From an uncultured Pelagibacteraceae bacterium (GTDB lineage Bacteria; Pseudomonadota; Alphaproteobacteria; Pelagibacterales; Pelagibacteraceae), in the NCBI GenBank assembly GCA_902518155.1, contig CABYFA010000002.1, positions 1 through 64,000 of the forward strand: DNA of 64,000 nucleotides, given 5' to 3'. Below, piece after piece: positions 1,664 through 49,587 of the stretch (position 1 is its first letter; every line of letters begins with the position of its first letter). The notes below the pieces were generated by a model, which saw only the letters and a list, made by a program, of their open reading frames with translations, was not told where the DNA came from and made no database searches. A program made the position numbers and the translations under genes.

Positions 1664-2889
1664 CCTAACTCAATCTTTAAATGTCTTTTTTTCCCCACTG
1701 AAAGTTTTAAATAATTTTGTCTGAACAATTCATGAGAAATAATTAGATTTTCTTGAGATATAATTTCATCATTAAGTTTTATTCCGTTTCCTTTAATAAG
1801 ACGTCTGATTTCACTCTTTGAATTTTCTAATTTAGATAATATCACGAGATCTATAATACTCATTTTATTTTCAATATCAGTTTTCTTAATTTTAATTGAA
1901 GGTAAATTTGAACCAAGCGAAGTTCCAGAGAAAGCTTCTTTTGCAGCTTGCTCTGAACTTTTAGCAGCTTTAAGACCATGAAGCATAGCAGTTGTCTCGT
2001 TAGCTAGCCTAATTTTAAGTTTATTAATGTTTTCATCCTTCATTTTATCAATTTCCTCAATATCTAAATCTGTAAACATTTTTAAAAATTTTATTACATC
2101 TCTGTCATCAATATTTCTCCAAAATTGCCAATAATCATATGATGATAATAATTTTTCATCTAACCAAATAGCACCTGTCTCAGTTTTTCCCATTTTTGCT
2201 CCTGAGGATAATGTAATGAGAGGGGTAGTTAAACCATAAGCTTGTTTACTAGAATATCTTTTTATAAGTTCTGTTCCATTAACAATGTTTCCCCATTGAT
2301 CAGAACCCCCTATTTGTAAGGAACAATTTTCTTTTTTATTAAGCTCTAAAAAATCATAAGCTTGCAAAATCATATAATTAAATTCCATATAACTTAAAGA
2401 TTGTTCTCTATCCAATCTAGTTTTAACACTTTCGAAAGTAAGCATTTTATTAATTGTAAAATGTTTTCCTATTTCTCTCAAAAATGAAATATAGTTTAAA
2501 TTTTTAAGCCAGGAATAATTATTTACAAAAATAGGTTTTGTTTTTGGATCATTATTATTTAAAAATTTTTTTAATATTTTTTCAATATTTTTTGTATTTT
2601 TATCAATTTCTTTTTCAGTTAAAATTTTCCTTGTTTTGTCCTTACCCGAAGGATCTCCAATTCTGGTAGTCCCTCCACCTAATAAGACAATCGGTCTGTG
2701 TCCATATTTTTGAAGAAGTCTGAGACACATGATTTGAAGTAAGCTTCCAACATGAAGACTTTCAGCAGTACAATCAAAACCTATGTAACCTTTAATTTTT
2801 TCTTTATTTATTAATTTAGATAATTCATTTTCATTAGTGCATTGATAGAAGTAGCCTCTATCTTTAAATTCTTTTAAAAATTTATCCAT
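1660..2889 (-). CDS. tyrS: Tyrosyl-tRNA synthetase
   Basis: YIGFDCTAESLHVGSLLQ (HIGH region), QIGGSDQWGNIVNG, KMGKTETGAIWLDE (KMSKS region), C-terminal S4-like domain. The ORF track starts at 2907; MDKFLKEFKDRGY at 2889 is the more likely start. Confidence 0.95.
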   Translation of the reverse strand: MDKFLKEFKDRGYFYQCTNENELSKLINKEKIKGYIGFDCTAESLHVGSLLQIMCLRLLQKYGHRPIVLLGGGTTRIGDPSGKDKTRKILTEKEIDKNTKNIEKILKKFLNNNDPKTKPIFVNNYSWLKNLNYISFLREIGKHFTINKMLTFESVKTRLDREQSLSYMEFNYMILQAYDFLELNKKENCSLQIGGSDQWGNIVNGTELIKRYSSKQAYGLTTPLITLSSGAKMGKTETGAIWLDEKLLSSYDYWQFWRNIDDRDVIKFLKMFTDLDIEEIDKMKDENINKLKIRLANETTAMLHGLKAAKSSEQAAKEAFSGTSLGSNLPSIKIKKTDIENKMSIIDLVILSKLENSKSEIRRLIKGNGIKLNDEIISQENLIISHELFRQNYLKLSVGKKRHLKIELG

Positions 2890-2936
2890 AAGTCTATAGT
2901 TCCACAATATACATTATTTAATAAAAAAAAATAAGA

Positions 2937-4082
2937 ATGGATAAGATTTATACAGCAATGGGTTTAATGAGTGGTACCTCATCAGATGGAGTAGATGTAT
3001 CCATAATTAAGTCAGATGGTAATCAAGAATTTTCAATATTAATTGATAAATATTTTCAATATGATGAAGAATTAACTCAAAAAATACTTAAAATTAGGGA
3101 TAAAATCTTAACTCCAGATCATTTAACCGAATATCAAGTTGAAATCAAAGATTTAGAAAGACAAATAACTTTATTTCATTTTAAGGCTGTTAATAAGAGC
3201 CTTGAATTATCAAAATCTGATGTTGATTTAATTGGTTTCCACGGTCAAACAATATTTCATGCTCCAGAAAAAAAAATTACAAAACAATTAGGTGATGGAT
3301 TGCTACTATCTCAATTAACTAAAAAGAGAGTTATTAATAACTTTAGACAAAATGATTTAGAAAATGGGGGACAGGGTGCTCCTCTAGCGCCAATCTTTCA
3401 TAATGCTTTAGCTAATGAATTAAATAAAAAATTTAATTTAGGTTTTCCAATGAATATTCTTAATATTGGAGGTATTTCTAATGTTACCTCTATAATAGAA
3501 TGTAATAATTTGGATTTAGAAGAAAAAATTTATGCCTGTGATATTGGACCTGGCAATTGTTTGATAGACGAATGGATGAGAAAAAATTCAAAAAAAGGGT
3601 ACGACAAAGAAGGTTTAGTAGCAAGATCTGGAAAAACAGACAAATTAATTTTAAATCAAGCTTTGGACAATTTTACTGAACAATCTAATTTTGAAAAATC
3701 TTTAGATACTAAAAATTTTGATATTTTTTTTGCAAAAGGACTTTCATTAGAGGATGGTGCTGCAACCATTACTGATTTCACCGCTAAGTTAATTTCCAAT
3801 GGAATGAATTTTATTCACAATAAGAATAATTCTCAAAAAAGTAAATGGTTAGTATGTGGGGGAGGAAGAAAAAATAAATATCTCATAGAAAGTATAAAAA
3901 ATAATTTTGATGATATAAATATTAATTCAATTGATCAATATGGATTAGATGGAGACTTTATCGAGTCTCAAGCTTTTGCTTTTTTAGCGATAAGATCATT
4001 AAAAGGTATGCCTATTTCATTTCCAAATACGACTAGATGTACAAAATCGGTAACTGGTGGAGTTTTAGTCAAAAATTTTTAA
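2937..4082 (+). CDS. anmK: Anhydro-N-acetylmuramic acid kinase
   Basis: MGLMSGTSSDGVDVSI, GFHGQTIFHAPEKK, NIGGISNVT, CDIGPGNCLIDEWM motifs. Confidence 0.93.
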   Translation: MDKIYTAMGLMSGTSSDGVDVSIIKSDGNQEFSILIDKYFQYDEELTQKILKIRDKILTPDHLTEYQVEIKDLERQITLFHFKAVNKSLELSKSDVDLIGFHGQTIFHAPEKKITKQLGDGLLLSQLTKKRVINNFRQNDLENGGQGAPLAPIFHNALANELNKKFNLGFPMNILNIGGISNVTSIIECNNLDLEEKIYACDIGPGNCLIDEWMRKNSKKGYDKEGLVARSGKTDKLILNQALDNFTEQSNFEKSLDTKNFDIFFAKGLSLEDGAATITDFTAKLISNGMNFIHNKNNSQKSKWLVCGGGRKNKYLIESIKNNFDDININSIDQYGLDGDFIESQAFAFLAIRSLKGMPISFPNTTRCTKSVTGGVLVKNF

Positions 4083-4735
4083 TACAAAGCTGTTTCTTTT
4101 TTAATGTATTTATCAAGAGATTTTGAAAGTGCATTCTCATTTTTTGAAAAAAAATGATTTGCTTCTGAGATTGATTGAAATTCAACTTTAATACCTTTTT
4201 GTGCACTTAATCTTTTATTTAGTTCATTGATATGTTCAACAGGTACCAATTCATCTTTTTTTCCATAAATCATTATCCCAGAAGTTGGACACGGAGACAA
4301 AAATGAAAAATCATAAACATTTGGTTGGGGAGATATTGCGACAAATCTATTTATCTCTGGTCTCCTCATTAAAAGTTGCATAGCAATCAATGACCCAAAA
4401 GAAAAACCTGAAACCCAACATTGAGAATTATCAAAATTTTCTCTCTCTAACCAATCAAGAGCAGCTGCAGCATCTGCTAATTCACCTTGGCCATTATCAA
4501 ATTCTCCATCACTCTTTCCTACACCTCTAAAATTTACTCTGCAAACTGAAAAATCATTTTCCATAAAAGTATGAAAAGTTTCTACAACAACTTTATTATT
4601 CATTGTCCCTCCATACTGAGGGTGTGGTTGTAAAACTAAAGCTATTGGTGAAGTGTTTTTTTTACTCTTATAATATTTGGCTTCAAGTCTACCTGCAGGT
4701 CCTGGAATAAATATTTCTAATATTTTATTTTCCAT
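4079..4735 (-). CDS. Alpha/beta hydrolase
   Basis: LQPHPQYGGTMNNKVV, NFRGVGKSDG, GFSFGSLIAM nucleophile elbow. Confidence 0.85.
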   Translation of the reverse strand: MENKILEIFIPGPAGRLEAKYYKSKKNTSPIALVLQPHPQYGGTMNNKVVVETFHTFMENDFSVCRVNFRGVGKSDGEFDNGQGELADAAAALDWLERENFDNSQCWVSGFSFGSLIAMQLLMRRPEINRFVAISPQPNVYDFSFLSPCPTSGIMIYGKKDELVPVEHINELNKRLSAQKGIKVEFQSISEANHFFSKNENALSKSLDKYIKKETALY

Positions 4736-4819
4736 AATTGTTATTGATTATTATTCTCAAAAAAAAATTAGGTTTATCACAACTGCGTGACAAAATGTTA
4801 GCTTTTTTTTACTCATGAT

Positions 4820-4840
4820 ACTTGACTATTTTGGTCAGGT
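4820..4840 (+). promoter_or_regulatory. Putative IscR/Rrf2-type operator upstream of iscR-suf
   Basis: Near-palindrome ACTTGACtattttgGTCAGGT, located about 30 bp upstream of the iscR ATG. Confidence 0.65.
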
Positions 4841-4869
4841 TTATATATACCCCTGTAAAATAAGGAATT

Positions 4870-5295
4870 ATGAGACTTACTTCTAAAGGCAGATATGCGG
4901 TTATGGCTTTAGTGGATCTGGCTAGATTTGATGGAATTAATCCAGTTTCTCTGAGAGATATATCTTTAAGACAAGGCATTTCGTTAGATTATTTAGAGCA
5001 AATTTTTTCAAAATTGAGAAAAAAAGAAATTGTTCAAAGCGTTAGAGGAACTCAAGGTGGATATATTTTAAATAGGAAAGCTAAAGAAATAAAATTAACT
5101 AATATTTTTGATGCAGTAGACGAAAAAGTAAAAACTGTCCAATGTAAAAAAGAGTCAAAAAAAGGATGCAATGGTAAATCTACAAAATGTTTAACTCACA
5201 ATCTTTGGGATGAACTTGAAACTCACATCAATAATTTTTTTGATAAAAAAAGTTTAGACGACTTAGTAAAAGAAAACTTTGAAAGAAGATTATAA
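4870..5295 (+). CDS. iscR: Rrf2-family Fe-S regulator (IscR-like)
   Basis: [18 protein letters not shown]; Cys cluster [24 protein letters not shown]; directly upstream of suf genes. Confidence 0.92.
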
Positions 5296-5296
5296 A

Positions 5297-6739
5297 ATGG
5301 ATACTAGAGAAAAAGATATAGAAAATTTAAAAGATTATAAATACGGTTTTACAACTGATATTGAAAATATTAAAGCACCAAAAGGTCTAAATGAAAATGT
5401 AATTAAGTTTATTTCAAATATTAAAAAAGAACCTAAATGGATGTTGGATTTTAGATTAAAAGCATTTGAAAGATTTAAGCTTCTCAAAGAACCTAACTGG
5501 CAAAAACCTAAGTATCCTAAAATTGATTATCAAGATTTATATTACTATTCGGCTCCGAAAAGTATGAAAGATAAACCTAAGAGCTTAGAAGAACTAGATC
5601 CTAAACTTTTAGAAACTTATAATAAATTAGGAATTCCCCTTCAAGAGCAGGCAAGATTAAATGGAATAGCTGTAGATGCGGTATTTGATTCTGTTTCAGT
5701 AGCCACAACATTTAAAGGTGAATTAACAAAACATGGTATCATTTTTTGTTCAATGTCAGAAGCAATACAAAAACATCCTGATTTGGTAAAAAAATATTTA
5801 GGAACAGTAATTCCAACAACAGATCATTTTTTTGCGACATTAAACTCTGCTGTTTTTACCGATGGGTCATTTGTTTATATTCCTGAAGGTGTAAAGTGTC
5901 CAATGGAGCTCTCGACCTATTTCAGAATTAATGCATCAGAAACTGGTCAATTTGAAAGAACTTTAATTATTGCTGATAAAGGAAGTTACGTGAGTTATTT
6001 AGAAGGCTGTACTGCACCGATGAGAGATGAAAATCAATTACACGCTGCTAACGTTGAACTAATAGCTCTTGATGATGCAGAGATTAAATATTCAACTGTT
6101 CAAAACTGGTACCCGGGAGATGAAAATGGAAAAGGGGGAATTTATAATTTTGTAACTAAAAGAGGACTATGTAAGGGAAAAAATTCTAAGATTTCTTGGA
6201 CACAGGTGGAGACAGGTTCTGCTATAACTTGGAAATACCCTAGTTGTATTTTAAAGGGTGATAACTCAATTGGAGAATTTTATTCAATAGCAATTACAAA
6301 TAATCATCAAAAAGCAGATACTGGGACAAAGATGATCCACCTTGGTAAAAATACTAAAAGTAAAATAATTTCCAAAGGTATTAGTGCTGGATTTTCTGAT
6401 ATGACATATAGAGGATTAGTAGATATAAATTCGAAAGCAAAAAATTCTAGCAACTATACTCAATGTGACTCTCTTTTAATGGGAAATAAATGTGGAGCAC
6501 ACACTGTTCCTTACATAAAGAACAAAAATTTCGACTCAAATGTTGCTCATGAAGCGACAACGTCAAAAATAAGTGAAGAGCAATTGCACTATTGTCAACA
6601 AAGAGGATTAAATCCTGAAGAGGCTGTTGGGTTGATCGTTAATGGATTTTGCAAAGAAGTTCTTCAGCAATTACCAATGGAATTTGCTGTAGAGGCACAA
6701 AAACTTGTTGGAATTAGTCTTGAAGGGAGCGTGGGTTAA
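5297..6739 (+). CDS. sufB: Fe-S cluster assembly protein SufB
   Basis: [51 protein letters not shown]. Start placed at the second Met of the 5279 ORF (MDTREKD). Confidence 0.95.
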
Positions 6740-7473
6740 TGCTGAAAATTAATAACTTAAACGCAAATGTTGAAAATAAGTCAATTTTAAAAGGATTTTC
6801 ACTAAATATAAACCCAGGTGAAGTACATGCAATAATGGGTCCTAATGGCTCTGGAAAAAGTACTTTATCTAATATTTTATCGGGAAAAAAAGGTTACGAG
6901 GTATCTGGAGAAATATTATTTGAAAATAAAAATCTATTTGAACTTGAAACTGAGGAAAGAGCGCACAAAGGTATATTTTTAGCCTTCCAATACCCTTTAG
7001 AAATTCCTGGAGTAAATACTAATATTTTTTTAAAGACTTCTCTAAATGCAATTAGAAAAGCTCGTGGACAAAAAGAACTTGATGCTATCGAGTTTTTAAA
7101 ACTCGTAAAAGAAAAAGCTAAGGAACTTAAATTTGATGAAGAAAAACTTAATAGGCAATTAAATGTAGGCTTTTCTGGTGGAGAAAAAAAGAAAAACGAA
7201 ATTCTACAAATGTCAATGCTGGCGCCAAAACTTTCAATTTTAGATGAAACAGACTCAGGTTTAGATATAGATGCTCTAAAAATAGTTGCAGATGGTGTAA
7301 ACACATTAAGGAATAATGAAAATTCTTTTTTAATCATTACTCATTATCAAAGACTATTAGATTATATTAAGCCAGATTTTGTTCACGTTTTAATGAATGG
7401 AAGGATTATTAAATCAGGTGGACCTGAACTTGCAGAAGAATTAGAAAAAAAAGGATATGAGAGTTTTAATTAG
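6739..7473 (+). CDS. sufC: Fe-S cluster assembly ATPase SufC
   Basis: MGPNGSGKSTL Walker A, FSGGEKKKNEILQM signature, LDETDSGLDIDALK. Confidence 0.95.
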   Translation: MLKINNLNANVENKSILKGFSLNINPGEVHAIMGPNGSGKSTLSNILSGKKGYEVSGEILFENKNLFELETEERAHKGIFLAFQYPLEIPGVNTNIFLKTSLNAIRKARGQKELDAIEFLKLVKEKAKELKFDEEKLNRQLNVGFSGGEKKKNEILQMSMLAPKLSILDETDSGLDIDALKIVADGVNTLRNNENSFLIITHYQRLLDYIKPDFVHVLMNGRIIKSGGPELAEELEKKGYESFN

Positions 7474-8721
7474 ATGAAGGAACAATTAAAAATAGATTTT
7501 AATAAAATTCAAGAAGTTTCTAATTTTTCTAATAGAGATATTGAGATAAAAAAGTCTTACCTAAATAAATTTATTAAAAATGGATTCCCAAATAGAAAAC
7601 AAGAAAATTGGAAGTTTTTGGATATAAATCAAATAATTAGTAATAATATTTCAAATTTGAGCTTTTATAATAATTATTCGATTGAAAATAAGATTGATTC
7701 ATCAATTTTTATAGATGATTTAGAACATAATAAAATTATTTTTATTAATGGAAGAATTGAAAAAATTGACTTTAGTTATGAGGATAAAAAACAGATTGAA
7801 ATAATCAAGGACTCTTTCACAATTGATAAGTCTGAAAACAATAATTCATTAATTGATTTGAATATTGCATTAAGTAATAAACATTTTAAAATTTTAATTA
7901 AAAAAAGCTACTCATTAAAAAAACCTTTAATCATTTATCATTTAACCAATGATAAAATGAAATCAAAGAATATTAATTTAAGGTTAGATTTTGAGCTTGA
8001 ACAAAACAGCTCACTAAAATTAATAGATTTCTTTAGTGATGATAGTGAAAAAAATTTTATGAATATTTTTTACAATTTTAATTTAGATAGAGATGCGATT
8101 CTTAAAAATTATAAAATTGATAAGTCGTTGAATAAAAATCTAAAATATTCATTTAATAATATTAATCAAAAACAAAATAGTATTTCTGAAACTTTTGTTT
8201 TTTCTGCAGGTTCAGACTATTTCAAAAATGAGATAAATTGTAATCTAAGTGGTGAATATTCTTCAGCATTTATAAATGGTATTTTTTCATTAGATAATAA
8301 TAAACAGCACGAAATAAGAACTACTATAAATCATTTAGTTGAAAATACAAAAAGCTATCAGTTAATTAAGAGTGTGCTTGGAAAAAATACAAAGTCTGCT
8401 TATCAAGGAAGAATATATGTAGATTCAAAGGCTCAGAAAACAGATGGATATCAATTAAGTAAAGCAATATTGTTAGACGAAACCTCAGAGTTTAACGCAA
8501 AACCTGAATTAGAAATTTATGCTGATGATGTTAAATGTTCTCATGGATCAGCATCTGGTAGTCTTGATGATAATTCAATTTTTTATTTAATGTCTAGAGG
8601 ACTAAATTATAAACAAGCTAAAGGACTATTAATAAATGGTTTTTTGCTTGATGTAATCGAAAAGATTACTGACGCTGAAATTAAAGATTTATTAAAAAAA
8701 ATGATTGGTTTAAAAAAATGA
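7474..8721 (+). CDS. sufD: Fe-S cluster assembly protein SufD
   Basis: Between sufC and sufS; C-terminus LEIYADDVKCSHGSASGSLDDNSIFYLMSRGL. Confidence 0.93.
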   Translation: MKEQLKIDFNKIQEVSNFSNRDIEIKKSYLNKFIKNGFPNRKQENWKFLDINQIISNNISNLSFYNNYSIENKIDSSIFIDDLEHNKIIFINGRIEKIDFSYEDKKQIEIIKDSFTIDKSENNNSLIDLNIALSNKHFKILIKKSYSLKKPLIIYHLTNDKMKSKNINLRLDFELEQNSSLKLIDFFSDDSEKNFMNIFYNFNLDRDAILKNYKIDKSLNKNLKYSFNNINQKQNSISETFVFSAGSDYFKNEINCNLSGEYSSAFINGIFSLDNNKQHEIRTTINHLVENTKSYQLIKSVLGKNTKSAYQGRIYVDSKAQKTDGYQLSKAILLDETSEFNAKPELEIYADDVKCSHGSASGSLDDNSIFYLMSRGLNYKQAKGLLINGFLLDVIEKITDAEIKDLLKKMIGLKK

Positions 8722-9938
8722 ACATAGATAATATTAAAAAAGAGTTTCCTATCTTTGATGAAAAGATACAAAACAATGATCTAGTTTATTTGGATAGTGC
8801 TAATTCTTCTCAAAAACCTAAAGTTGTTATTGATAGAATAAACGAATTCTATACTAAAGAATTTTCAAATGTGGGCAGAAGTATTCATTATTTGGCAGTG
8901 GCAGCGACTAATTTATATGAAAATACAAGATCTTCTGTCCAAAAATATATTAATGCAAAAGATAAAAATGAGATTGTATTTACTAAGGGTGCAACTGAAG
9001 CCCTCAATTTAGTTGCTAATACACTTGGCCAAAAGTATTTGAATGAAGGTGACGAAATTTTACTCACTGAGTTAGAGCATCATTCAAATTATGTACCATG
9101 GCACTATTTGAGAAAATCAAAAAATATAAAGATTAATTTTGCTGAAATAAATGAAGAGGGAGAAATTCCAATTGAAAATATTGAAAAAAAAATTACGCCA
9201 AAAACAAAGGTGATTGCCATTAATCATCTATCGAATGTCACTGGCGCAATCTTACCAATCAAAGAGATTACTGAGCTTGCACACGCAAAAGATATAATTG
9301 TTGTTGTAGATGGATGTCAAGGTGCACCACATTTGAAACTTGATGTGCAAGATCTGGACTGTGATTTTTATGCAATTTCTTGTCATAAAATGTATGGACC
9401 GACTGGACTTGGAATTTTGTATGGAAAAAAAAAATGGCTCGAAGAATTACCACCTTATCAAGGTGGTGGTGGAATGATTAAAGAAGTTAAAAAAGATCGT
9501 ATTACTTATGGTGATCTTCCAAATAAGTATGAAGCAGGCACTATGGCCACTGCACAGGTGATAGCTTTTGATAAGTCTATCAAATTTTTAGAAAGTATTG
9601 GAATTGAAAATATAATTAAACATGAAAAAGAATTAATAGAATATGGTCAAGAAATTTTAAAAAAGAATAATTCAGTAAAATTAATTGGTAATCCAAAAAA
9701 TAAAGGCGGTGTAATATCGTTTACGATTGAAGGGGTACATCCACATGACATAGCGACAATACTTGACGAAGACGGAGTAGCTATTAGGGCTGGACACCAT
9801 TGCTGTCAAATATTACACGACAAACTTGAAATACCTGCAAGTGCAAGAGCATCAGTAGGTGTCTATAATACTAAAAGTGATTTTGATCAATTAAATGAGT
9901 CTATAAACAAATGTAAAAAAATTTTCGATTTAAAATGA
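8718..9938 (+). CDS. sufS: Cysteine desulfurase SufS
   Basis: VYLDSANSSQKP, CHKMYGPTGLGILYGKK PLP-lysine region, RAGHHCCQ. Confidence 0.95.
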   Translation: MNIDNIKKEFPIFDEKIQNNDLVYLDSANSSQKPKVVIDRINEFYTKEFSNVGRSIHYLAVAATNLYENTRSSVQKYINAKDKNEIVFTKGATEALNLVANTLGQKYLNEGDEILLTELEHHSNYVPWHYLRKSKNIKINFAEINEEGEIPIENIEKKITPKTKVIAINHLSNVTGAILPIKEITELAHAKDIIVVVDGCQGAPHLKLDVQDLDCDFYAISCHKMYGPTGLGILYGKKKWLEELPPYQGGGGMIKEVKKDRITYGDLPNKYEAGTMATAQVIAFDKSIKFLESIGIENIIKHEKELIEYGQEILKKNNSVKLIGNPKNKGGVISFTIEGVHPHDIATILDEDGVAIRAGHHCCQILHDKLEIPASARASVGVYNTKSDFDQLNESINKCKKIFDLK

Positions 9939-10399
9939 ATTTAAAAGAATTATATCAAGAAATAATTTTAGAACATGGAAAAAATCCAAGGAATTTGAGG
10001 AAGACTGAGAATTTTAATAAAGATGCGAAAGGGAATAATCCTTTATGTGGGGATAATGTGCATGTTTATCTAAAATTGAATAACCAAAGAAAAGTTGAAG
10101 ATATTTCTTTTGAAGGAAGTGGTTGCGCAATATCAATGGCCTCAGCTTCAATAATGACAGATTTGATTAAAGGCAAAAGTGACAATGAAGCAAAGGAGAT
10201 CATAGATGATTTTCTTGGAATGATAAAAGAAAATCCTGAATTAAAATCTTCGATTTTAGAGGAGGATGATAAAACAAAACTAATGTGTCTATCAGGAGTA
10301 AAACAATATCCTATGAGAGTAAAATGTGCTACTTTATCTTGGCATACTTTGATTTCTGCAATGGAAGATGATGGAAAGCAAGTGAGTACAGAAGATTAA
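9935..10399 (+). CDS. sufU: SufU-type Fe-S assembly scaffold/sulfur acceptor (NifU N-terminal family)
   Basis: NPLCGDNVHVYL, GSGCAISMASASIMTDLIKGK, and the insert between the second and third Cys regions followed by VKCATLSWHTL, as in SufU. Confidence 0.88.
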   Translation: MNLKELYQEIILEHGKNPRNLRKTENFNKDAKGNNPLCGDNVHVYLKLNNQRKVEDISFEGSGCAISMASASIMTDLIKGKSDNEAKEIIDDFLGMIKENPELKSSILEEDDKTKLMCLSGVKQYPMRVKCATLSWHTLISAMEDDGKQVSTED

Positions 10400-38323: not shown

Positions 38324-39334
38324 ATGGGAAAGATAACATCTATAGATTTATTTGCAGGAGTAGGAGGAATGAGAATTTCTCTTTCAAAAGCCTTAAGAAA
38401 ATTAGGTTATGCTGATGAATGTAAGCTATATTCAGAAATTAACTCTTATAGTCAACAAACTTACAATGAGAATTTTCCAGAAACAAAGTTAATAGAGGAT
38501 ATTAAATCAATAGATAAGAAAAATATTGATCAAATAATACCCGATCATGATATCTTGTTAGCTGGTTTCCCATGCCAACCTTTTTCAATAGCAGGTATTT
38601 CAAAAAGAAAAAATCTTAAAAGAGCTTACGGCTTTGAGGATAAAGACCAAGGAGATTTATTTTTTAATATTTTAGATATTTTAAATACAAAAAAACCTAG
38701 AGCATTTGTTTTAGAAAATGTGCAAAATTTAAAAAATCATCAAAGAGGTAAATTGTTAAATAAAATTCTTAAAGAGCTTAGAAAAAATTATTATGTACCA
38801 GAACCACAAGTTTTGGATGCGCAGAATTTTGGATTAGCTCAAAGAAGAAGAAGAATTTTTATAGTTGGTTTTTTAAATTTTAATGGAGATTTTAAATTTC
38901 CAAATCCAACTAATAAAAAAACAAAAGTAAAAGATTTTTTAGATTTATACCCACCCAAAAAATATATTATTTCAGATTTGCTTTGGAAAAGTCATAAAAA
39001 AAGAAAGTTAAGAAACAAAAAAGCAGGAAAGGGTTTTGGATATAAATTAACTTATCCAACCGATAAAGCGACAATTACTATTTCAGCAAGATACTATAAA
39101 GATGGTAGTGAATGCTTGCTTTATAGAGGTGACAATAAAAATCCTAGAAAATTAACTCCAAGAGAAGTTTTTAGGCTTCAAGGTTTCCCAGAAAGTTTTA
39201 AATTTTCAGTTTCAGATTTGCAAGCATATAAACAAGCAGGCAATGCTGTACCAATTAATGTAGTAGAGAAAGTTTGTATAGAAGTCTTGAAATATTTAAT
39301 AAGAAAAAAAAATAGAATTAAAAATGCTGCTTAG
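38324..39334 (+). CDS. drmMII: DNA (cytosine-5-)-methyltransferase, DrmMII-like
   Basis: Motif I DLFAGVGGMRISL, motif IV GFPCQPFSIAG, motif VI ENVQNL, motif VIII QRRRRIFIVGF, motif X AGNAVPINV. Confidence 0.9.
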   Translation: MGKITSIDLFAGVGGMRISLSKALRKLGYADECKLYSEINSYSQQTYNENFPETKLIEDIKSIDKKNIDQIIPDHDILLAGFPCQPFSIAGISKRKNLKRAYGFEDKDQGDLFFNILDILNTKKPRAFVLENVQNLKNHQRGKLLNKILKELRKNYYVPEPQVLDAQNFGLAQRRRRIFIVGFLNFNGDFKFPNPTNKKTKVKDFLDLYPPKKYIISDLLWKSHKKRKLRNKKAGKGFGYKLTYPTDKATITISARYYKDGSECLLYRGDNKNPRKLTPREVFRLQGFPESFKFSVSDLQAYKQAGNAVPINVVEKVCIEVLKYLIRKKNRIKNAA

Positions 39335-41298
39335 CTATTAAAAAGCTCTTCAAAATATCCTACTAAATTAGTTTGGGTATCTCCTACTATAGTTGTTCTA
39401 TCTAAAAGCTGATTTGCTTCCTCACAAGATGTTTCAGGTAGAAATGAACAAGCATGACAAGATGCTGAGTTAGTTCCACTTAATCCTTGACTTTTATTAT
39501 CTATACATACTGGATCGTACGAACAAACTTGAGCTTTAATCAAAGATTGTTTAATGATATTTTCTAAATTCCTTGGCTCACCTTCTCTTACTAAGCCTCC
39601 TAGGCTGCCTTCTGAATCGCCTGATGCAGTATATATAAGCACACCATTCATCGGCTTATCAGGATAATCTAAATCACAATATACTCGCTCTCTTAATGAA
39701 GCACTTCCATAACCACATGAATAACTTAATTGATTTATCATTAAATGTGCAAAAGTGTGAATTAAAAAAAACTTCGTATTTAATTTTCTTTCTGGAAGAT
39801 TTCTTTCTTTACGGTTTTTATTATACCTATCATTAATTTCTATAAGGTGATTTTGAGAAAAATTACTACTCCATTCTTTAAGTTTTTTCTCATTAAATTC
39901 AAAGAATATACCTTCTCCTTTGACGGTAATACCAGGGTACCATTCTAATTTTTCAAGAGAGTTAGATTGAATATTTGATTCCTTTGAAGGATCATAAGGC
40001 AACATTCTTGTAAACCCTGTTTGAACTCTTGTTTCAATCAAACTATCAATCAAAAAAATATTACTAAAATATTCTTTTAATTTTCCATATTTAATCATAT
40101 CAATTTTTCGTATTTTTAATTCCAGATCATTGTTATCTGAGGGATCTTTATTTTTTATAAAGTTATATTCTTGAAATCGATACTCTTCTTCATCATCAAC
40201 TGCCTCATTTTTTTGGCTTTCAATACCTTTAAGTTTTATATCTATTGCTTCTAAAACTTTGTCCTCATCTAAATTGAACTGTTTTATTCTTGATTTTAAT
40301 ACTAATTTTAGCTCATGGGTATTTTTGGAAAATTCTTTTACCAAAGACCAAATATCTTTTTTATTTAAAAACTCGAGTATTTTTCTATCTATTTTTCCAG
40401 TTTTTACAGGAATAAATATAGAACTTTTAACTACTGGGTAATAAACATTTGAAGCTTGTCTCAAAACAACCTTTGGCGACTCTTTACAACCTTTTTCATG
40501 TTGATTTAATCCTAGCCAAGGTCTGTTACCTGTGCATTTATATTTAATTTTTTTTTCTAAAGGAGTAATTTCTTTTCCACCTTCATCGCTAATATTGAAG
40601 CTGTTAACTGCTTCTGCTAATGAATAACCTTCATTACATCTCACACAATCTACCCTTACATTCATAAGTGAATTATTTCCACCTCTACCGTCGACAAAAC
40701 GTAATTCACATTTTTCAGGATCATACTTATTTTTTCTGTGAACCCATTCTATAAAAGGGAAATCATCTATATGGCCTTTCTCGCATATAACCATAAATCT
40801 TATTGGTAATAAAAATTTTTTTTTCCACGTTTCATTGTTATTTGAGCAGATTTTAAAGTGTTTTTCATTTATCAGTTTTCCATTTTGATCTCTTTTGGGG
40901 TTACATCTTGGAGCATCAGATGAAAATAGAGGTGCTTTATGCATTAGGTTACATTGATGACAATAATGCCATTGAGGAAAACGAACATATGGTAAAAATT
41001 TAGCTTTTAAGCTCTCATCGTATGAGTATTGCCTAAAATCTGGCGGTTCTAAAAAATATTCTTTTTTAAGTCTGGCCTGAAGCCTTGGTTCAAATATTTT
41101 CCAACCATCCGGTGGTGTCTTGTTATCAAACATGTTTTCCCAAGCTTCTAAACCAGCTAACATCAGTGAGTCTTGATCACCGGATTTGCTCCATTGATTT
41201 TTAAACAAATAAAGTGAACCAACACCAAAAATTGAAATTATTTGAGATTTTCTAATTGTTCTTTTTGCAAAAGTGTTTCGACGATTAGTACTTCTCAT
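39331..41298 (-). CDS. drmB: DISARM DUF1998 protein DrmB-like
   Basis: DUF1998-type C-terminus (HTFAHLMINQLSYSCGYGSASLRERVYCD, GVLIYTASGDSEGSLGGLVREGEP, SCHACSFLPETSCEEANQLLDR); several Cys pairs; paired with drmA. Confidence 0.85.
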   Translation of the reverse strand: MRSTNRRNTFAKRTIRKSQIISIFGVGSLYLFKNQWSKSGDQDSLMLAGLEAWENMFDNKTPPDGWKIFEPRLQARLKKEYFLEPPDFRQYSYDESLKAKFLPYVRFPQWHYCHQCNLMHKAPLFSSDAPRCNPKRDQNGKLINEKHFKICSNNNETWKKKFLLPIRFMVICEKGHIDDFPFIEWVHRKNKYDPEKCELRFVDGRGGNNSLMNVRVDCVRCNEGYSLAEAVNSFNISDEGGKEITPLEKKIKYKCTGNRPWLGLNQHEKGCKESPKVVLRQASNVYYPVVKSSIFIPVKTGKIDRKILEFLNKKDIWSLVKEFSKNTHELKLVLKSRIKQFNLDEDKVLEAIDIKLKGIESQKNEAVDDEEEYRFQEYNFIKNKDPSDNNDLELKIRKIDMIKYGKLKEYFSNIFLIDSLIETRVQTGFTRMLPYDPSKESNIQSNSLEKLEWYPGITVKGEGIFFEFNEKKLKEWSSNFSQNHLIEINDRYNKNRKERNLPERKLNTKFFLIHTFAHLMINQLSYSCGYGSASLRERVYCDLDYPDKPMNGVLIYTASGDSEGSLGGLVREGEPRNLENIIKQSLIKAQVCSYDPVCIDNKSQGLSGTNSASCHACSFLPETSCEEANQLLDRTTIVGDTQTNLVGYFEELFNS

Positions 41299-44200
41299 AT
41301 TTTTCCTTTGTATGACTGAATAATTATAGCATTACACTCTTTGTCCACATTTCTCATAGACGTAAGTGTTTCAAAAGGATCACCTTCGGGCGGTGTCTCA
41401 GATCCTGCAGGTATCATTAGTAAAGAACTTGTACTTTGATTTGCTATCGAAACCATTTTTCCATACTCTTGGGGATTTGTATTTTCCCATTTATCAAAAA
41501 TAAAATCTAATTCTTTCTCGGTATTTAATTCTTCTTCAGCATGTTCCGGATCTGCCTTTCTTACATAAGATAAAATATATCTTTTTATTTTTAATTTTAA
41601 CTTTTCATTGGGAGGAGATGGATTTAATCTAAGTGTAGTTCCCCATAGTCTAGCGAGACCAATCACAATTGCATGTAAACATCTTGATCTAACTGGATCC
41701 GAATGTGACGTAATACTAGTTGGTTCAACAAATTTATAGAGATTTTCATGATAGCTTTGAAATTTTTCATAGTGTGATCTATCTCTAGGCCTAAAAGGAC
41801 TCAATATAGTCAATACTAATCCAGGCTTACTTTTTTCTCTTCCAACTCGGCTTGATGCCTGAATATATTCCGAAGTAGTTTTTGGTTGACCAACTATTGT
41901 CATCAAAGCTAGTCTTGGAATATCTATTCCAACCTGAATCATATTGGTTGTTAAACATATATCTATTGCCTTATTGTTATCTTGAGAATGTTGAGTAAAA
42001 AGTCTATCTAAAATTTCTGGCACTGCACTACTTTGGACTCTAGAAGTTAACTCCTCTGGTTTGTAGAGGCCTCTACGCATATCTTTGGTATATTTTTCAC
42101 CCATAACTTCTTTTCTTAGACCTTTTCTATAATATTCACCTCTTAAATTTCCTTTTGCATCTGCTTGTATTAATGCTGCTCCACCCATTAATTCTCGTAT
42201 ACTGTTAAAATAAAAAAGATTAGTCCAATATGGATCATAACATTTAGTATCATTATCAGAATTTATTCTTGCTTCATTTGCAGCCATACACATAGAAGAC
42301 ATAATTTTAGCTTGAGTAATTTGAGGAGAAGATGCGCTAGGACAAAAAACACCCACATATTTTCTACCTTCTTCATTCTTAGCTTCAACTGAAAAAAAAG
42401 AGTCCTCTAATTGATTTGATTGTGGAGGAAAAATATGACATTCACTCCCGTAAAGATTTTTTACTTGTTGTTCAGCTCTGCTAATTGTTGCAGTAGATCC
42501 AATTATTTTGGCATTAATAATTTTATCACCGATTTTTTTTTCTGTTAAAGCACTAAGAAATATTTCATACATTCCAGCAATGGAACCTAATGGTCCTGAA
42601 ATCAAATGAAGTTCATCCTGAATTATTAGATCAGGTTTGGTAAATTTTTCATTATCGAACATTGATATTGCTTCATGAAGCCATGTAACTGAAGCAAATT
42701 TATCTATTGTACCAATTAATAAAGTAGGTGGCTCATTATAAATTCTTTCATCGATTACTGTAATTGGTAGATTTTCTTTATCACTTGAAAAGGAACAGTC
42801 TTTATTTGGACAAACATAGTGAAAATGTTTTTTTTTACCTAAAATTTTGTATCCTCTTGGTCTTTCTTGATCTTTTACAAACTGCTCATTACACCAAGGA
42901 CAATTAAGTAAAATAAATTTATTTTTTGAAGTATCCTTTGGATCAAAAAAAAGCTCTGTTAAACACTGTGAGGCCTCATTCTCTTTGTTAGGAGTAGACT
43001 CTTTACCAATCCAAAGACCTAGAGAAATCTTCTCCTGTCCAAGTAAATTTGAATTTTTACGTCTTATTAGTTCACACGCACATATTAAAGATGCAGCTCT
43101 TTGAAATTGCTGAGTAGTTAAAAGCCTTAGAGTATATCTCATTAATACAGCGCAACCCTTCTCATCTTTTGAATTCAATTTTCTCAAAAATATAGTGAAG
43201 CTGGTAAGACCCAAATAAGCTTCTGTTTTACCGCCACCTGTGGGAAACCAAATTAAATCCATTATTTTTCTTTCATCACTATCAGGTTCTAAAAAACTTT
43301 TTATGTTCAAAAGAATAAAGGCTAATTGGAAAGGTCGCCAATTACCTTTTTTAAGATCTTCTAATTTTTTTTCATAATCAATATCAATTTTAAAATCTTT
43401 AATTTGATAGTGAACTTGTTGTAAATACATACTATGGTTCATAAAAATAAACGCCTTTTGAGCAATTTTATTTTTTTCAAGAATTGATATACCTTGATTA
43501 ATTCTTTTAAGAATATTTTTACATTTTTCTGTATTTATTTCTGACGTTTTTTTAAAAACCTCACTTGAAAATTTTTTTCCCCTTGAAATTTCTTGATCTA
43601 TCCAAGAAGAATATTTTTCTGATAATTTTTTTGATTGTAAAATTGCAAAATCTATATCCTCAGAAAATTTTTTCATATTTAATTCAAGATCTTTAAATTC
43701 TTGGGCTTGAATTGGCTTAGTTTCGAAAACTGGTATTATTTCAGACTGAATAATAAATTGACCATCTTGATTTTTTTTCCAAGAAGGGGCACAACCATGA
43801 CCTATTGCATAAGATTTTCTATTATGATGTAACAAATTTAAAGATTTTTCTTCCTGACTTAACTTATCAATATTTATTTGATCAAAAGAATGAAAAATAT
43901 TGTCAGAACTTTTTTTTGCATGAATAAAAAAATTGCTTTGAAAAAAGCACTTATTTACAAGAATTTTTTCTTTACTCGCTAAATTAGTATTAACAAGAGA
44001 AACTGTTAAATATTTTTTATCTTGATCTTTATGAGGTCTTATTATTACAGAAATACATAATCCAATATCCTCTTTTTTTTCATCTTTTAAATTTTTAATT
44101 ATTCTTTTACTAGAATTGTTTAATTCATTCGACTGAATCTCAATTATTGAATTTATAGATTCTCTTTGATATCCACTTTTTACTTCTTCAATTTCTTTTT

Positions 44201-44975
44201 TATTTTCTTTAATCGAATTGATGTCATTCTCTATTAACATCTCCAGTTCTTCTCTTTTAATTTTTTCAAGTTCTTTAATAGTTCTAGATATATGTGTAGG
44301 TACTTTTTCTTTATCGAAACCTACTCTTTTGTTAGTTTCAAAATGTGGATCAAAATAATCTCTAAAATTAACTTTTATATTTGATACAGTATAGATATTT
44401 TCTAAAAATTTATGACACTCATCCTGAGTATTTTTTGGTAATTTAAATTTTTCAAATAACCATTGATAAGAATTTTCATACTTAGATAAGTAACAACAAG
44501 CCATCAAAAGTTGTTTTGAAGGTTCTTTGCCTAGTTTATTATACCTTCCTATATCATTAACTCCGATAATAACTGGTTTATCATTAGATACTAAAATAGT
44601 CATACCCATTGCCGAAGCTCTTAGTTCATTTGTTAAGTCTAAATCAAAATTATTATCTGAAACCTGGTCTTCAATATCATCTTCGGACGTTTCTGGTGAT
44701 TTATCCTTAGTTTCCATTATATTTTTTTCATCAAAAATATTTTCATTTTTGTAGTCATCTTCATCAAAATGATAACTATTAACTTCTCCCTGAGGGAATA
44801 ATATACCAGCTGTATACACACTCCTTGGGCTTTTATCTAAAATCTCATTTGAATGATTGTATTTGTCTTGTGAATAATATTCAAAACTTGACATTCCTGG
44901 ACCAACTAATTGTTTTTTTAACTCTTGAATTAGGTATTCTCTTGTTTCAGAAGCTGATTTAATTATTTTTGTCAT
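41295..44975 (-). CDS. drmA: DISARM helicase DrmA-like
   Basis: Walker A LIWFPTGGGKTEAYLGL, DEXH-like LIIQDELHLISGPLGS, GSTATISRAEQQV, motif V/VI TNMIQVGIDIPRL...YIQASSRVGR; 1226 aa, overlaps drmB. Confidence 0.88.
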   Translation of the reverse strand: MTKIIKSASETREYLIQELKKQLVGPGMSSFEYYSQDKYNHSNEILDKSPRSVYTAGILFPQGEVNSYHFDEDDYKNENIFDEKNIMETKDKSPETSEDDIEDQVSDNNFDLDLTNELRASAMGMTILVSNDKPVIIGVNDIGRYNKLGKEPSKQLLMACCYLSKYENSYQWLFEKFKLPKNTQDECHKFLENIYTVSNIKVNFRDYFDPHFETNKRVGFDKEKVPTHISRTIKELEKIKREELEMLIENDINSIKENKKEIEEVKSGYQRESINSIIEIQSNELNNSSKRIIKNLKDEKKEDIGLCISVIIRPHKDQDKKYLTVSLVNTNLASKEKILVNKCFFQSNFFIHAKKSSDNIFHSFDQINIDKLSQEEKSLNLLHHNRKSYAIGHGCAPSWKKNQDGQFIIQSEIIPVFETKPIQAQEFKDLELNMKKFSEDIDFAILQSKKLSEKYSSWIDQEISRGKKFSSEVFKKTSEINTEKCKNILKRINQGISILEKNKIAQKAFIFMNHSMYLQQVHYQIKDFKIDIDYEKKLEDLKKGNWRPFQLAFILLNIKSFLEPDSDERKIMDLIWFPTGGGKTEAYLGLTSFTIFLRKLNSKDEKGCAVLMRYTLRLLTTQQFQRAASLICACELIRRKNSNLLGQEKISLGLWIGKESTPNKENEASQCLTELFFDPKDTSKNKFILLNCPWCNEQFVKDQERPRGYKILGKKKHFHYVCPNKDCSFSSDKENLPITVIDERIYNEPPTLLIGTIDKFASVTWLHEAISMFDNEKFTKPDLIIQDELHLISGPLGSIAGMYEIFLSALTEKKIGDKIINAKIIGSTATISRAEQQVKNLYGSECHIFPPQSNQLEDSFFSVEAKNEEGRKYVGVFCPSASSPQITQAKIMSSMCMAANEARINSDNDTKCYDPYWTNLFYFNSIRELMGGAALIQADAKGNLRGEYYRKGLRKEVMGEKYTKDMRRGLYKPEELTSRVQSSAVPEILDRLFTQHSQDNNKAIDICLTTNMIQVGIDIPRLALMTIVGQPKTTSEYIQASSRVGREKSKPGLVLTILSPFRPRDRSHYEKFQSYHENLYKFVEPTSITSHSDPVRSRCLHAIVIGLARLWGTTLRLNPSPPNEKLKLKIKRYILSYVRKADPEHAEEELNTEKELDFIFDKWENTNPQEYGKMVSIANQSTSSLLMIPAGSETPPEGDPFETLTSMRNVDKECNAIIIQSYKGKI

Positions 44976-44977
44976 TT

Positions 44978-46822
44978 CTAAACTTTTAGTCCTCCAATGA
45001 CTTTTAGCTGCTTATCATAATATTCTTTCAATCTTATGTCCCAAATTAAATATAAAATTGTTGTAGCTCTACCCATGGCATTGAATGCAATTAATTCTGG
45101 CTTTAAACTATCAAGACTAGAATATGATTTAGGTGGTGTTTCTAATGGATCAACATATACAACTATCTTACTTTCTAAACCTTGAAAGGCTGCGGCTGTT
45201 GAAAAATAAATACATTCTTTTTTCTTGATTTCATCAATATTATTACCTAAGTTTCTTATATTCTTATCTGTGAGATCTACTACATGATCATATGTTCCTG
45301 ATAAATCTAGTTCTGATATAAAGTTATATTTATTATCTAATCTAAAATTAGATAAAATTACAATATCATGTCCTTTAACACCTTCATTTTTTAACTTTCT
45401 AATAATTGAACTCAATCGTTCAATTTTTTCCGATCTACCTTTACAAAATGAATTTATAACCTCTCCGTGTTCTGATTTTGATATTTGATATGGTAAATTT
45501 TTAAATAAACCAGATAATATAGGTGCATTTCTAGATATCGATTTTGAATTTCTAACGTTTCTTGTCAAAGGAACCTGTTCATAATCAATCAAATAGTTTT
45601 TGGGATGCTTATTCTGATCAATCAATAATTGATCTGAAACTAAATTTTGATATTTAAAATCACCCAAAAAGCAATATTTACCATCACTTAATCCATCTTT
45701 TAAAATTAATTCCATAAAATCATAAAATTTGTCATAGAAAAAACAATTCTGCATTTCATCAAATACAATAAAATCATAATTGAATTTTTTTTTAAGTAGG
45801 CTTGTGTCTGCTTTCAAAATCTCAACTGATTTATCAATTAATAAATTATTTTTTTTTATAAATTCTCGTTTTATGATTGATTTTAAAAACTGCTTATCAA
45901 CAGAATTAATTATTTCTAATAAAAATTTATTGAATGTATAGAAATCTATAGAATTTTCAGTTTCAAAATTTTTTAATTTATCTTTCATCTCTTCACAGGC
46001 AAGTCTATTTGAGTTTAAAAATAAAATTTTTGACTTATTTTTATTATATTCTCTTCTCAGAATATCTTCGGCTATAGATGTTTTGCCTGTTCCTTGACTA
46101 CCGGTAACTAAAATTCTTTTACCTTCATCTAAATGATTGAGAATATCAATTTGTTCATCTGTATATTCTTTAATTTCTAATTCACTATCACTGAGAATAG
46201 TTGGTGTTTTTATAAATACCTCAAAATTAGGTCTCATTATTTTTTTTTGTAACATATTCAAATCTTTTTCATTAATTTGAAAAATACCACCTCCAGTTTT
46301 CAATATTTTGGAAAGACCAACTAATCTATTTATGAAATTTGAATTAAAACTGTCAGTATCAATAATATTATCGTTAGAATATTCAATATCATCAATTACA
46401 TCAAAAGCGCATTGAGTAAAAACAACCATCCAATTTTGTGGAAATTTTTTATTTAATTTTAATTCTATATATTTTCTAATATTAAACATAGAGTCACTTG
46501 CTTGTTTTAACGGACTTTTTTTATTTGGTTCTTTAGTACCATCAGGTTTTGTTATATCCCAAACTCCTTTTTTACATGAAAAACCTGTCCAACCTTTAAC
46601 TTCAATATTAATTATTCCCTTATTTGGTATAAGAATTACAAAATCAGCCTCACCAAAATATTTAAAAGATTTTTTTTCAGATTTTTTTATACTTACAGGA
46701 TAATTTAACGAGTGGTAAACAACCCAATTTTTTGTTTCAGCGTTAGGACTATTTTTAAGTTTAGAAAAAACTTTTTTTTCAGCAAAATTACTATTATCTA
46801 TTGTAGGAGGTATCATGATCAT
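44978..46822 (-). CDS. NERD-domain plus UvrD/SF1-like helicase
   Basis: N-terminal NERD-like nuclease core (DFVILIPNKGIINIEVKGWTGF), Walker A ILVTGSQGTGKTSIAED, Walker B IVFDEMQNCF, C-terminal helicase motif FSTAAAFQGLESKIVVYVD. Confidence 0.85.
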   Translation of the reverse strand: MIMIPPTIDNSNFAEKKVFSKLKNSPNAETKNWVVYHSLNYPVSIKKSEKKSFKYFGEADFVILIPNKGIINIEVKGWTGFSCKKGVWDITKPDGTKEPNKKSPLKQASDSMFNIRKYIELKLNKKFPQNWMVVFTQCAFDVIDDIEYSNDNIIDTDSFNSNFINRLVGLSKILKTGGGIFQINEKDLNMLQKKIMRPNFEVFIKTPTILSDSELEIKEYTDEQIDILNHLDEGKRILVTGSQGTGKTSIAEDILRREYNKNKSKILFLNSNRLACEEMKDKLKNFETENSIDFYTFNKFLLEIINSVDKQFLKSIIKREFIKKNNLLIDKSVEILKADTSLLKKKFNYDFIVFDEMQNCFFYDKFYDFMELILKDGLSDGKYCFLGDFKYQNLVSDQLLIDQNKHPKNYLIDYEQVPLTRNVRNSKSISRNAPILSGLFKNLPYQISKSEHGEVINSFCKGRSEKIERLSSIIRKLKNEGVKGHDIVILSNFRLDNKYNFISELDLSGTYDHVVDLTDKNIRNLGNNIDEIKKKECIYFSTAAAFQGLESKIVVYVDPLETPPKSYSSLDSLKPELIAFNAMGRATTILYLIWDIRLKEYYDKQLKVIGGLKV

Positions 46823-49587
46823 AAAAATAACAACCTATTTGTTATAGACGCCTTAACTTCTTTTAAAGTTTTTGGTTCTTCAAAATTATTTACTTGAACA
46901 ATATAACCCTCTGGTTTACCTGCGGTTTCTGAACCAAATATAATGTTTCCATCTATGTAGTCTACTCGTAAAGGATCTCCATCAAATTCTATGTTTTTTG
47001 CTTCTCTAATTAGTGCTTGATCAAGTTTTTTTGATAAACTAAAACCAGCGCTTTGACGAATAGATTTATATTCTTGAGCATCTTTAAACATTTCTAAAAC
47101 TTCTTTTTCGTCATATCTATACGCATCAGTTTTGAACTCTGAGCAAATTAAAGCACATGCTTTGAATATCTTTTTTAAATCCTCAGGGTTTTTAGGACAA
47201 ATAGTTCCACCATTTATATCTGATAACGACAAAACATTATTTATACCTTTTGTGTAATTAACTTTTTTTAAAACATAATTTAAAAGGGATTTCTTATTCC
47301 TTGAAAATCTTGCACTTGGCATAATAATATTTTCGCCATTGAGTCTATCATGAGTACTTTCTAAACATTTGTTTATTATATTTGGAATTTTTTTTGTTTT
47401 TTCTTTAATATTAAAATACTTTTCTTTATCGTTATTTAATCTTAAAATTGCTTCATGATCTAATGCTTCACTATCTGATTCATGTCGCATTAAAACTATG
47501 TCTCCTATTTTAATTTGCTGATAATTTTTTTTAACAATCTTTCCTCTTTTTTCAAATGCAGATGGATCAAAAACAGAATTTAGAACTTTAAAAGAAAAAT
47601 CCTCGGTTGCTAAAGTATAACAGTCGCCATTAAATATTGTTAAAAACGCCGGGAGTTTTAGTGCCTCTTCGTCACTTTGGCCGCTAATAATATCATTCGT
47701 ATATTTTGACAAATCTTTTATTCTAAAAAAATCTTCATAATCTTTTAATTTTTTTGATTTTAATTGATCTGGCTGAAAAAATAAATTTATATACTTTTTA
47801 TCAATATCTAGAATTTCACATTTTCTGTCATTACTCATATTAAGATTTAGCCATCTGTTAAATAAGTGATTTTTTACAGAGTTTATTTCCTCTTTAAGAC
47901 TTTTGCTTCCTATAAAATAAACATTTTCAAAATTATCACTTAATAAAAGTTTTATAATTTTAGATTGAACTAATTCAGAAGGGACTATTAAAGATTTAAA
48001 TGATCTAATATTATCAATTGAATTAATAACATTAGCATCTATACCCCATTTTTCTTTAATATTTTTTTTATAGTAAATTTTTCTCTCAGGATTGTATGCT
48101 AAGATAGCATAATCATTTTTTCCATCATTTTCTCTAAATTTTAAATTTTCGTGTAATTCATTTAATCTTTTATCAAATATATTGTTGTTACTCATTTTAA
48201 TATTTTTAAAAATTTTACCTAATTCAACAAGCTCATCAAATAATTCATTATCCAAAAAACTTTCCATTGAATTTAATTTTGTAAAATATAAGTCTATTGC
48301 AAATTTTGTTTCTTCTTTTAATTTATCAGGAAAACCAAAAATATGATCTCTTAACTCATACATTTTTGTACGTAATCCAGAAATCAAATTTCTAATGTTG
48401 TCTTTTTTTGTTTCATCATAATAAATAATTCTATCAACTATTTTTTTAATTTTATTATTGATAAGATTAAACACTGTATCATCAGTATCTAAATAAATAT
48501 CCTTTTTATAAATATGATTTCTACTTTTTAAATATGCTCTTCCTGGAAATGATTTATTCAAATCAAAGTCATCATGCTTGATTTGACTTATAAAAGTCTC
48601 AATTTCTTTATTAGAAAATTTCCAAACTTCAGAATTGTTGTTTTCTTTAAAAGATTTTACGTAGTCATATTCATGCTCTTCGGCAAAAACCAAAAATTTA
48701 AAATTCTTATTATTATTTTTTATTTGTTCAATTATTGGAAAATTCTCACAGAGTTTTTTTATATCATCACAAATAATTAATTTTTCATTGTCAGTTTTTG
48801 AGGAGAATTCATATATTGAGCCTAAATCTTTAGTATAAACCATTAATGGTTCTATCGAATGATCTTTAATATTGCCATCCTCATCAATTTGGCCTGATTT
48901 GATAATTTCCGCCAATGTATTATCGTTATTAGTTTGGTTTATATTACTTAATAATATTTCTGTGTTTAAAAATTTATCAAATGAAGAAAAGAAATTTGTT
49001 AAAACTATTATTTTATTTTTATAAAGCATTGGATTATCATAACTTTGAATATTTAAGATTTCGTCAATTCTTGATTTAATTGGTTGAGGAATAAATCCCT
49101 TAGTTCCAATTTTTTGCTTGTTTAAATTATTGTCTGAGATAGGTGCTAGCTGTAATAATGTTTCAATTTTATGATCTATCTTAATTGATTTATCTATTAA
49201 ACTACCAAGTGAAATAAAGTTATCATTTTTTTTTCCTAAGTATCTATATGTTTTACCTGTTTCTGCTCCACTAGAACAGAGCATTACATTGACATCGGGT
49301 TTAAGCCAATTTTCAAAATTTTCTAATCTGTTTTGAAAATCTTTTTTATAAAAAGTCAAAGCTCCAAATAAACTTGAAAGATAAGCCATTTCTTTTTTTG
49401 CTGGAAGAACCAAGATTAAATCATTATGGATATTTTGTATTATTTTATTTATAATTGGATAAATGCCTAATAAGTTAATTTTTCCATAGGAATTATTACC
49501 TAATTTATTAAAATGTACTTCAATCAGGTCATTTAAAAGAGGGTCGTTATTTTTAAGAATTTTTATAATTTCATTAAAATTGTTCAT
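46819..49587 (-). CDS. drmE: Large DrmE-like protein of the DISARM-like operon
   Basis: 922 aa; LILVLPAKKEMAYLSSLFGALTFY and SSGAETGKTYRYLG near the N-terminus; first gene of an operon with drmA/drmB (4-bp overlap with next gene). Assigned mainly by context and size. Confidence 0.55.
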   Translation of the reverse strand: MNNFNEIIKILKNNDPLLNDLIEVHFNKLGNNSYGKINLLGIYPIINKIIQNIHNDLILVLPAKKEMAYLSSLFGALTFYKKDFQNRLENFENWLKPDVNVMLCSSGAETGKTYRYLGKKNDNFISLGSLIDKSIKIDHKIETLLQLAPISDNNLNKQKIGTKGFIPQPIKSRIDEILNIQSYDNPMLYKNKIIVLTNFFSSFDKFLNTEILLSNINQTNNDNTLAEIIKSGQIDEDGNIKDHSIEPLMVYTKDLGSIYEFSSKTDNEKLIICDDIKKLCENFPIIEQIKNNNKNFKFLVFAEEHEYDYVKSFKENNNSEVWKFSNKEIETFISQIKHDDFDLNKSFPGRAYLKSRNHIYKKDIYLDTDDTVFNLINNKIKKIVDRIIYYDETKKDNIRNLISGLRTKMYELRDHIFGFPDKLKEETKFAIDLYFTKLNSMESFLDNELFDELVELGKIFKNIKMSNNNIFDKRLNELHENLKFRENDGKNDYAILAYNPERKIYYKKNIKEKWGIDANVINSIDNIRSFKSLIVPSELVQSKIIKLLLSDNFENVYFIGSKSLKEEINSVKNHLFNRWLNLNMSNDRKCEILDIDKKYINLFFQPDQLKSKKLKDYEDFFRIKDLSKYTNDIISGQSDEEALKLPAFLTIFNGDCYTLATEDFSFKVLNSVFDPSAFEKRGKIVKKNYQQIKIGDIVLMRHESDSEALDHEAILRLNNDKEKYFNIKEKTKKIPNIINKCLESTHDRLNGENIIMPSARFSRNKKSLLNYVLKKVNYTKGINNVLSLSDINGGTICPKNPEDLKKIFKACALICSEFKTDAYRYDEKEVLEMFKDAQEYKSIRQSAGFSLSKKLDQALIREAKNIEFDGDPLRVDYIDGNIIFGSETAGKPEGYIVQVNNFEEPKTLKEVKASITNRLLFL

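Follow-up and report, generated by a model that had tools for sequence, protein, structure and literature searches.

DISARM typically carries the PLD nuclease DrmC; related systems swap nucleases, and many DISARM-like classes are still uncharacterised (PMC12458937). DrmC is dispensable in the systems tested and is often missing, and host PLD nucleases have been proposed as stand-ins for it (PMC9142583). The same structural study left the DISARM nuclease a mystery and described class 1 DrmAB of Serratia, which loads on unmethylated or ssDNA-ended DNA and translocates (PMC9142583). The PADLOC definition of type II DISARM comprises DrmA, DrmB, DrmC, DrmE and DrmMII. NERD domains are known from two other settings: a domain review includes a 'Nhi-like' NERD system (PMC10952713), and in the TALON/BRIGADE/ARMADA systems, which combine a YprA-type helicase with a PD-(D/E)xK nuclease, the nuclease of TALON is NERD (PMC12458937). 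DefenseFinder, applied to 172 SAR11 genomes, is reported to have detected no systems other than those of the restriction-modification type (PMC11066056).

The locus described here lies in a 64,000-nucleotide window (the whole stretch of DNA that was analysed) of a SAR11 genome. Four genes on the minus strand form an operon in the order drmE-like (49587-46819, 922 aa), NERD-helicase, drmA (44975-41295, 1226 aa) and drmB (41298-39331, 655 aa). The drmE-like and NERD-helicase genes overlap by 4 bp, a 2-bp gap separates the NERD-helicase gene from drmA, and drmA and drmB overlap by 4 bp; these coordinates agree with the placement of the NERD-helicase gene between drmE-like and drmA in the initial annotation. 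The locus is completed by a gene for a drmMII-type C5-cytosine DNA methyltransferase (38324-39334, plus strand, 336 aa), which is convergent with drmB, the tails of the two genes overlapping by 4 bp. One peptidase M16 gene and one peptidase M50 gene flank the operon. An empty-site comparison was uninformative because these two peptidase genes are not adjacent in the relative that carries both.

The window contains the DISARM core, namely DrmA and a separate, adjacent gene for DrmB. DrmA, an SF2 helicase of the YprA type, scores 720 bits with the PADLOC model and 890 bits with the NCBIfam model, slightly below the equivalog cut-off of 950. Its MZB/DUF1998-domain partner DrmB scores 268 bits with PADLOC and 445 bits with NCBIfam DrmB_fam, above the cut-off of 240. 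The methyltransferase matches the class 2 component DrmMII of PADLOC with 328 bits and Pfam DNA_methylase with 272 bits; the DrmMII and Type II methyltransferase models score nearly equally, and the DrmMII label comes partly from context. The locus resembles class 2 DISARM in uniting DrmA, DrmB and a 5mC methyltransferase of the DrmMII type with a protein that is DrmE-like by indirect evidence, and differs from it in lacking DrmC and in the insertion of a NERD-helicase between drmE-like and drmA. Since DrmC is part of the PADLOC type II definition and is absent here, the locus was filed as a DISARM variant and not as class 2 itself. With class 1 it shares the DrmA/DrmB core; unlike class 1, it lacks DrmC, the DrmD model (SNF2 helicase) finds nothing within the window locus, no DrmMI-type adenine methyltransferase was found among the neighbouring ORFs scanned, and its DrmA belongs to another clade. 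PGAP calls most of the DrmA proteins of this kind just 'helicase-related protein' (L034, L035, L036, L041 and L063). Because of these vague labels and of the NCBIfam cut-off, which the window DrmA misses, the variant is under-annotated.

The drmE-like label of the initial annotation is reasonable but indirect. The 922-aa protein matches no Pfam, PADLOC or NCBIfam model, and a direct match to NCBIfam DrmE_fam was accordingly rejected. Two other alphaproteobacterial loci (L016 and L017) have the same gene order with a corresponding protein of ~1110 aa, which scores 117 bits in L017 and 64 bits in L016 against DrmE_fam (cut-off 80 bits). A 1792-aa protein of L024 bridges the two groups, matching the window DrmE-like family at 2e-10 and the L017 protein at 3e-10, and a profile-profile comparison of the window protein with those of L016 and L017 gave a probability of 79%. 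By this transitive homology, the first operon gene probably encodes a divergent DrmE. The AlphaFold model of the protein, made from two sequences, was too poor for use (pLDDT 37), as was that of the NERD-helicase alone (pLDDT 33).

The NERD-helicase gene (44978-46822, minus strand) starts with ATG and encodes 614 aa. Pfam NERD (PF08378) matches residues 12-135 with 42.5 bits (cut-off 22.1) and Pfam UvrD-helicase matches with 25.9 bits (cut-off 23). In a PF08378 search of the 1.14-Mb genome, this PD-(D/E)xK nuclease-like domain (46418-46789, minus strand; 45.3 bits) was the sole NERD domain. The PDB profile matches, Schlafen, PcrA/UvrD, Upf1 and GajB, are all SF1-type helicases, and both a Walker A (GSQGTGKTS) and a Walker B motif (IVFDEMQNC) are found. 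These matches and motifs confirm the fusion of a NERD-type N-terminus to a Walker A/B helicase that had first been read from the ORF. Residues E15, D60, E74, K76 and Q107 (window numbering) and the Walker A residues G244, G246, K247 and T248 are invariant in all 19 DISARM-linked NERD-helicases; D355/E356, R424 and R585 do not vary among the 18 copies that extend intact over those sites. The nuclease and helicase activities are both predicted to be intact.

The same domain fusion occurs in the Nhi-like or DRT-associated NERD-helicases, whose PADLOC model (RTasNERD-Hel) matches the window protein with 67 bits. Those proteins are single-gene or reverse-transcriptase-linked systems, whereas the window gene is embedded in a DISARM operon, among whose genes no reverse transcriptase was seen. 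TALON, found mostly in Chloroflexota, consists of ARMADA-like YprA, TPR-CSD and TBP genes. No TPR-CSD- or TBP-type genes were found in the window operon; as in DISARM, its drmA and drmB encode the helicase and the DUF1998 part separately, and the fusion partner of NERD is an SF1 helicase. Literature searches for DISARM with NERD returned just the papers on TALON (PMC12458937) and on the Nhi-like system (PMC10952713). A NERD-helicase is documented as a DISARM component in neither PADLOC, NCBIfam nor the searched literature; the founding DISARM paper (Ofir 2018) or supplements could mention one.

No HKD/PLD protein was found near the window drmA, either in the gene neighbourhood or in a six-frame recheck. 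In the whole genome, which is ~92% complete, PLDc_2 matches just a 717-aa polyphosphate kinase. The same Pfam model recognises known DrmC proteins, and a DrmC hidden elsewhere in the genome was rejected, the lone PLD-like match being that kinase. The absence of a DrmC gene, initially noted for the flanking sequence, therefore holds for the locus and for the available genome. By itself this absence is unremarkable, since DISARM systems can dispense with DrmC and frequently lack it (PMC9142583). That no PLD nuclease turned up in this ~92%-complete genome matters because host enzymes of this type were proposed to substitute for DrmC (PMC9142583).

DrmA was searched in 386 alphaproteobacterial, 399 Pseudomonadota and 398 Pelagibacterales genomes, which partly overlap, and in 72,556 plasmids. 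The gene neighbourhoods of 47 DrmA loci, a sample without the canonical Bacillus class 2 loci, were inspected and then rechecked in six frames. A NERD-helicase is present in 19 of the 47 loci and drmC in 11, and the two never occur together. The NERD-helicase-bearing loci span Alphaproteobacteria, Burkholderia (degraded), Actinomycetota and Deinococcota. In a reduced set, which omits two loci found by NERD-helicase searches and two partial-DrmA loci mostly at contig ends, 17 loci have a NERD-helicase, 11 have drmC and 16 have neither (Fisher p 0.003; 0.016 once some near-copies are dropped). The 16 loci with neither gene indicate that neither is obligatory. Among the plasmids, NERD-helicases are carried by 10 of the 54 with drmA and by 8 others among the 72,556 (p about 1e-27). 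All ten lie near drmA, and none of the 19 drmC-bearing plasmids carries one (10 versus 19 of 54: p 0.01, or 0.08 with near-copies collapsed). All four strong NERD-helicases (>300 bit) in the 399 Pseudomonadota genomes adjoin drmA (p 5e-7). These p values overstate significance because the counts ignore phylogeny, and the mutual exclusion is clade-structured. The association of NERD-helicase with drmA is far stronger than its exclusion of drmC.

Within Pelagibacterales, DrmA was found in 4 of 398 genomes, about 1% of sampled species, and all four have the NERD-helicase (the window, L015, L053 and L054, in genomes G000, G098, G977 and G864). In L054, an AspBHI-like/Mrr-type restriction endonuclease gene (6701-7882) directly follows drmB.

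The survey shows that DISARM loci without drmC but with a NERD-helicase in the operon recur, in line with the variant that the initial annotation had suggested, and the co-occurrence with drmA across genomes is strong. That the NERD-helicase is a chance neighbour or an annotation artefact is extremely improbable, as the gene order persists between independent genomes whose proteins are as little as ~25% identical; the spread of the loci over phyla and complete plasmids also speaks against mutual contamination. A stand-alone, Nhi-like defence gene nested in the DISARM operon, each acting independently, would be a more serious alternative, and NERD/SF1 fusions do exist outside DISARM, as 'Nhi-like' (PMC10952713) and as homologues in Leisingera, Sphingomonas and Thermomicrobium. 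We consider it unlikely, given the tight overlapping junctions, the same position across distant phyla, the strong enrichment beside drmA with exclusion of drmC, and the constant company of drmA for strong family members in the sampled genomes. On plasmids of Leisingera and Sphingomonas without DrmA (L049 and L051), the NERD-helicase adjoins a 2094-aa helicase or a 1618-aa DUF3883 protein, and these may be further NERD-helicase defence pairs.

The NERD-helicase occupies two positions relative to drmA and drmB. In the first layout, the drmE-like gene or two smaller genes are followed by NERD-helicase, drmA and drmB; this order is found in SAR11 (the window, L014, L015, L053 and L054), in L016, L017 and L024, in Rhodococcus (L034) and in Deinococcus (L035 and L063). 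In the second layout, UvrD-drmA-drmB-NERD-helicase, the NERD gene occupies the drmC position; it is found in Azospirillum (L036), Rhizobium (L040 and L041), Shinella (L042), L019 and L027, and in L018 the NERD-helicase lies one or two genes beyond this position. In a quick DrmA tree, with support by SH-aLRT only, class 1/drmC systems form a supported clade, the loci with the NERD-helicase in the drmC slot form a second, and a third unites the upstream-NERD systems and further loci that lack drmC. The NERD-helicase tree likewise splits the two layouts, and its drmC-slot clade groups with non-DISARM members, a point in favour of the stand-alone reading. Constraining the DISARM-linked copies to a single clade is disfavoured, though weakly (AU p 0.038), and with the tree this makes it likely, though not certain, that DISARM recruited the NERD-helicase twice.

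Three loci, on two Photobacterium plasmids and in genome G576 (L030, L043 and L045), have a third drmC-less layout, in which drmA and drmB are followed by an SF1 helicase without NERD and by a ~480-aa protein, which in L043 matches no Pfam model and may be the nuclease. Such NERD-free helicases after drmB are compatible with the NERD-helicase being an accessory processing motor for DNA-end resection or displacement that widens or regulates DISARM, its nuclease site not being the effector and DISARM blocking phage by DrmAB loading alone. The dispensability of DrmC and the proposal that DrmAB forms a physical replication block (PMC9142583) also fit; the full conservation of the nuclease residues in the 19 DISARM-linked copies argues against this reading, to which we give slightly less credence than to the stand-alone gene. 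A separate plasmid locus, in Burkholderia aenigmatica (L052, 7956-17341), has broken drmA and drmB genes together with an IS3 element; its NERD-helicase gene, encoded on the other strand, is intact. This locus is decaying.

A scan of genome contigs revealed one closely related locus, in the single-cell genome AG-365-K10 (L014), with a 92%-identical homologue. Between window positions 41295-49587 and L014 positions 2499-10361, DNA identity is 96.5% for DrmA, with 98-100% in its downstream half, about 90% for the NERD-helicase and 71% for the drmE-like gene. The drop comes at the drmE/NERD boundary, identity within the drmE-like gene ranging over 63-79%, and no similarity could be aligned beyond the operon. 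This gradient and the dissimilar flanks fit a horizontally moved mosaic cassette. The drmE-like gene may have been exchanged or may be the fastest-evolving part, as expected for a specificity or anti-evasion component. The two NERD-helicase copies differ at 30, 24 and 132 first, second and third codon positions, which indicates purifying selection. The AG-365-K10 copy (5222-7059) is split by a 1-bp deletion beside an A-run, which may reflect assembly error, phase variation or decay.

The locus is probably a class-2-like DISARM system (DrmE-like, DrmA, DrmB and DrmMII) without drmC, in which the NERD-helicase serves as the candidate nuclease effector. It may functionally replace DrmC, our best inference from the mutual exclusion, the location of the NERD gene in the drmC slot of one clade and the conserved catalytic residues; since DrmC is dispensable in the tested systems, perhaps no nuclease needs replacing. 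In the proposed mechanism, DrmMII would mark self DNA with 5-methylcytosine, as its family suggests. By extension from class 1 Serratia, DrmAB would then load on phage DNA that is unmethylated or has ssDNA ends and would translocate, and the rapidly diverging DrmE-like protein might provide recognition or gating. The NERD-helicase, recruited to DrmAB or trailing it, would load on the exposed strand through its own SF1 motor and cleave with its PD-(D/E)xK site, so that restriction turns into degradation. More tentatively, and short of an even chance in our judgement, these loci may form a distinct DISARM class in which the NERD-helicase, recruited at least twice, is an obligate effector fed by DrmAB.

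If such a class exists, the DISARM core would act as a general-purpose engine for sensing and translocation that works with interchangeable nucleases. A recurrent operonic nuclease-helicase that never accompanied drmC in the surveyed loci makes it possible to test in what way DISARM destroys phage DNA, and it could explain how phage DNA is cut in DISARM systems without the usual nuclease. SAR11, reported with only restriction-modification-type systems (PMC11066056), carries DISARM, in a variant that current models under-call.
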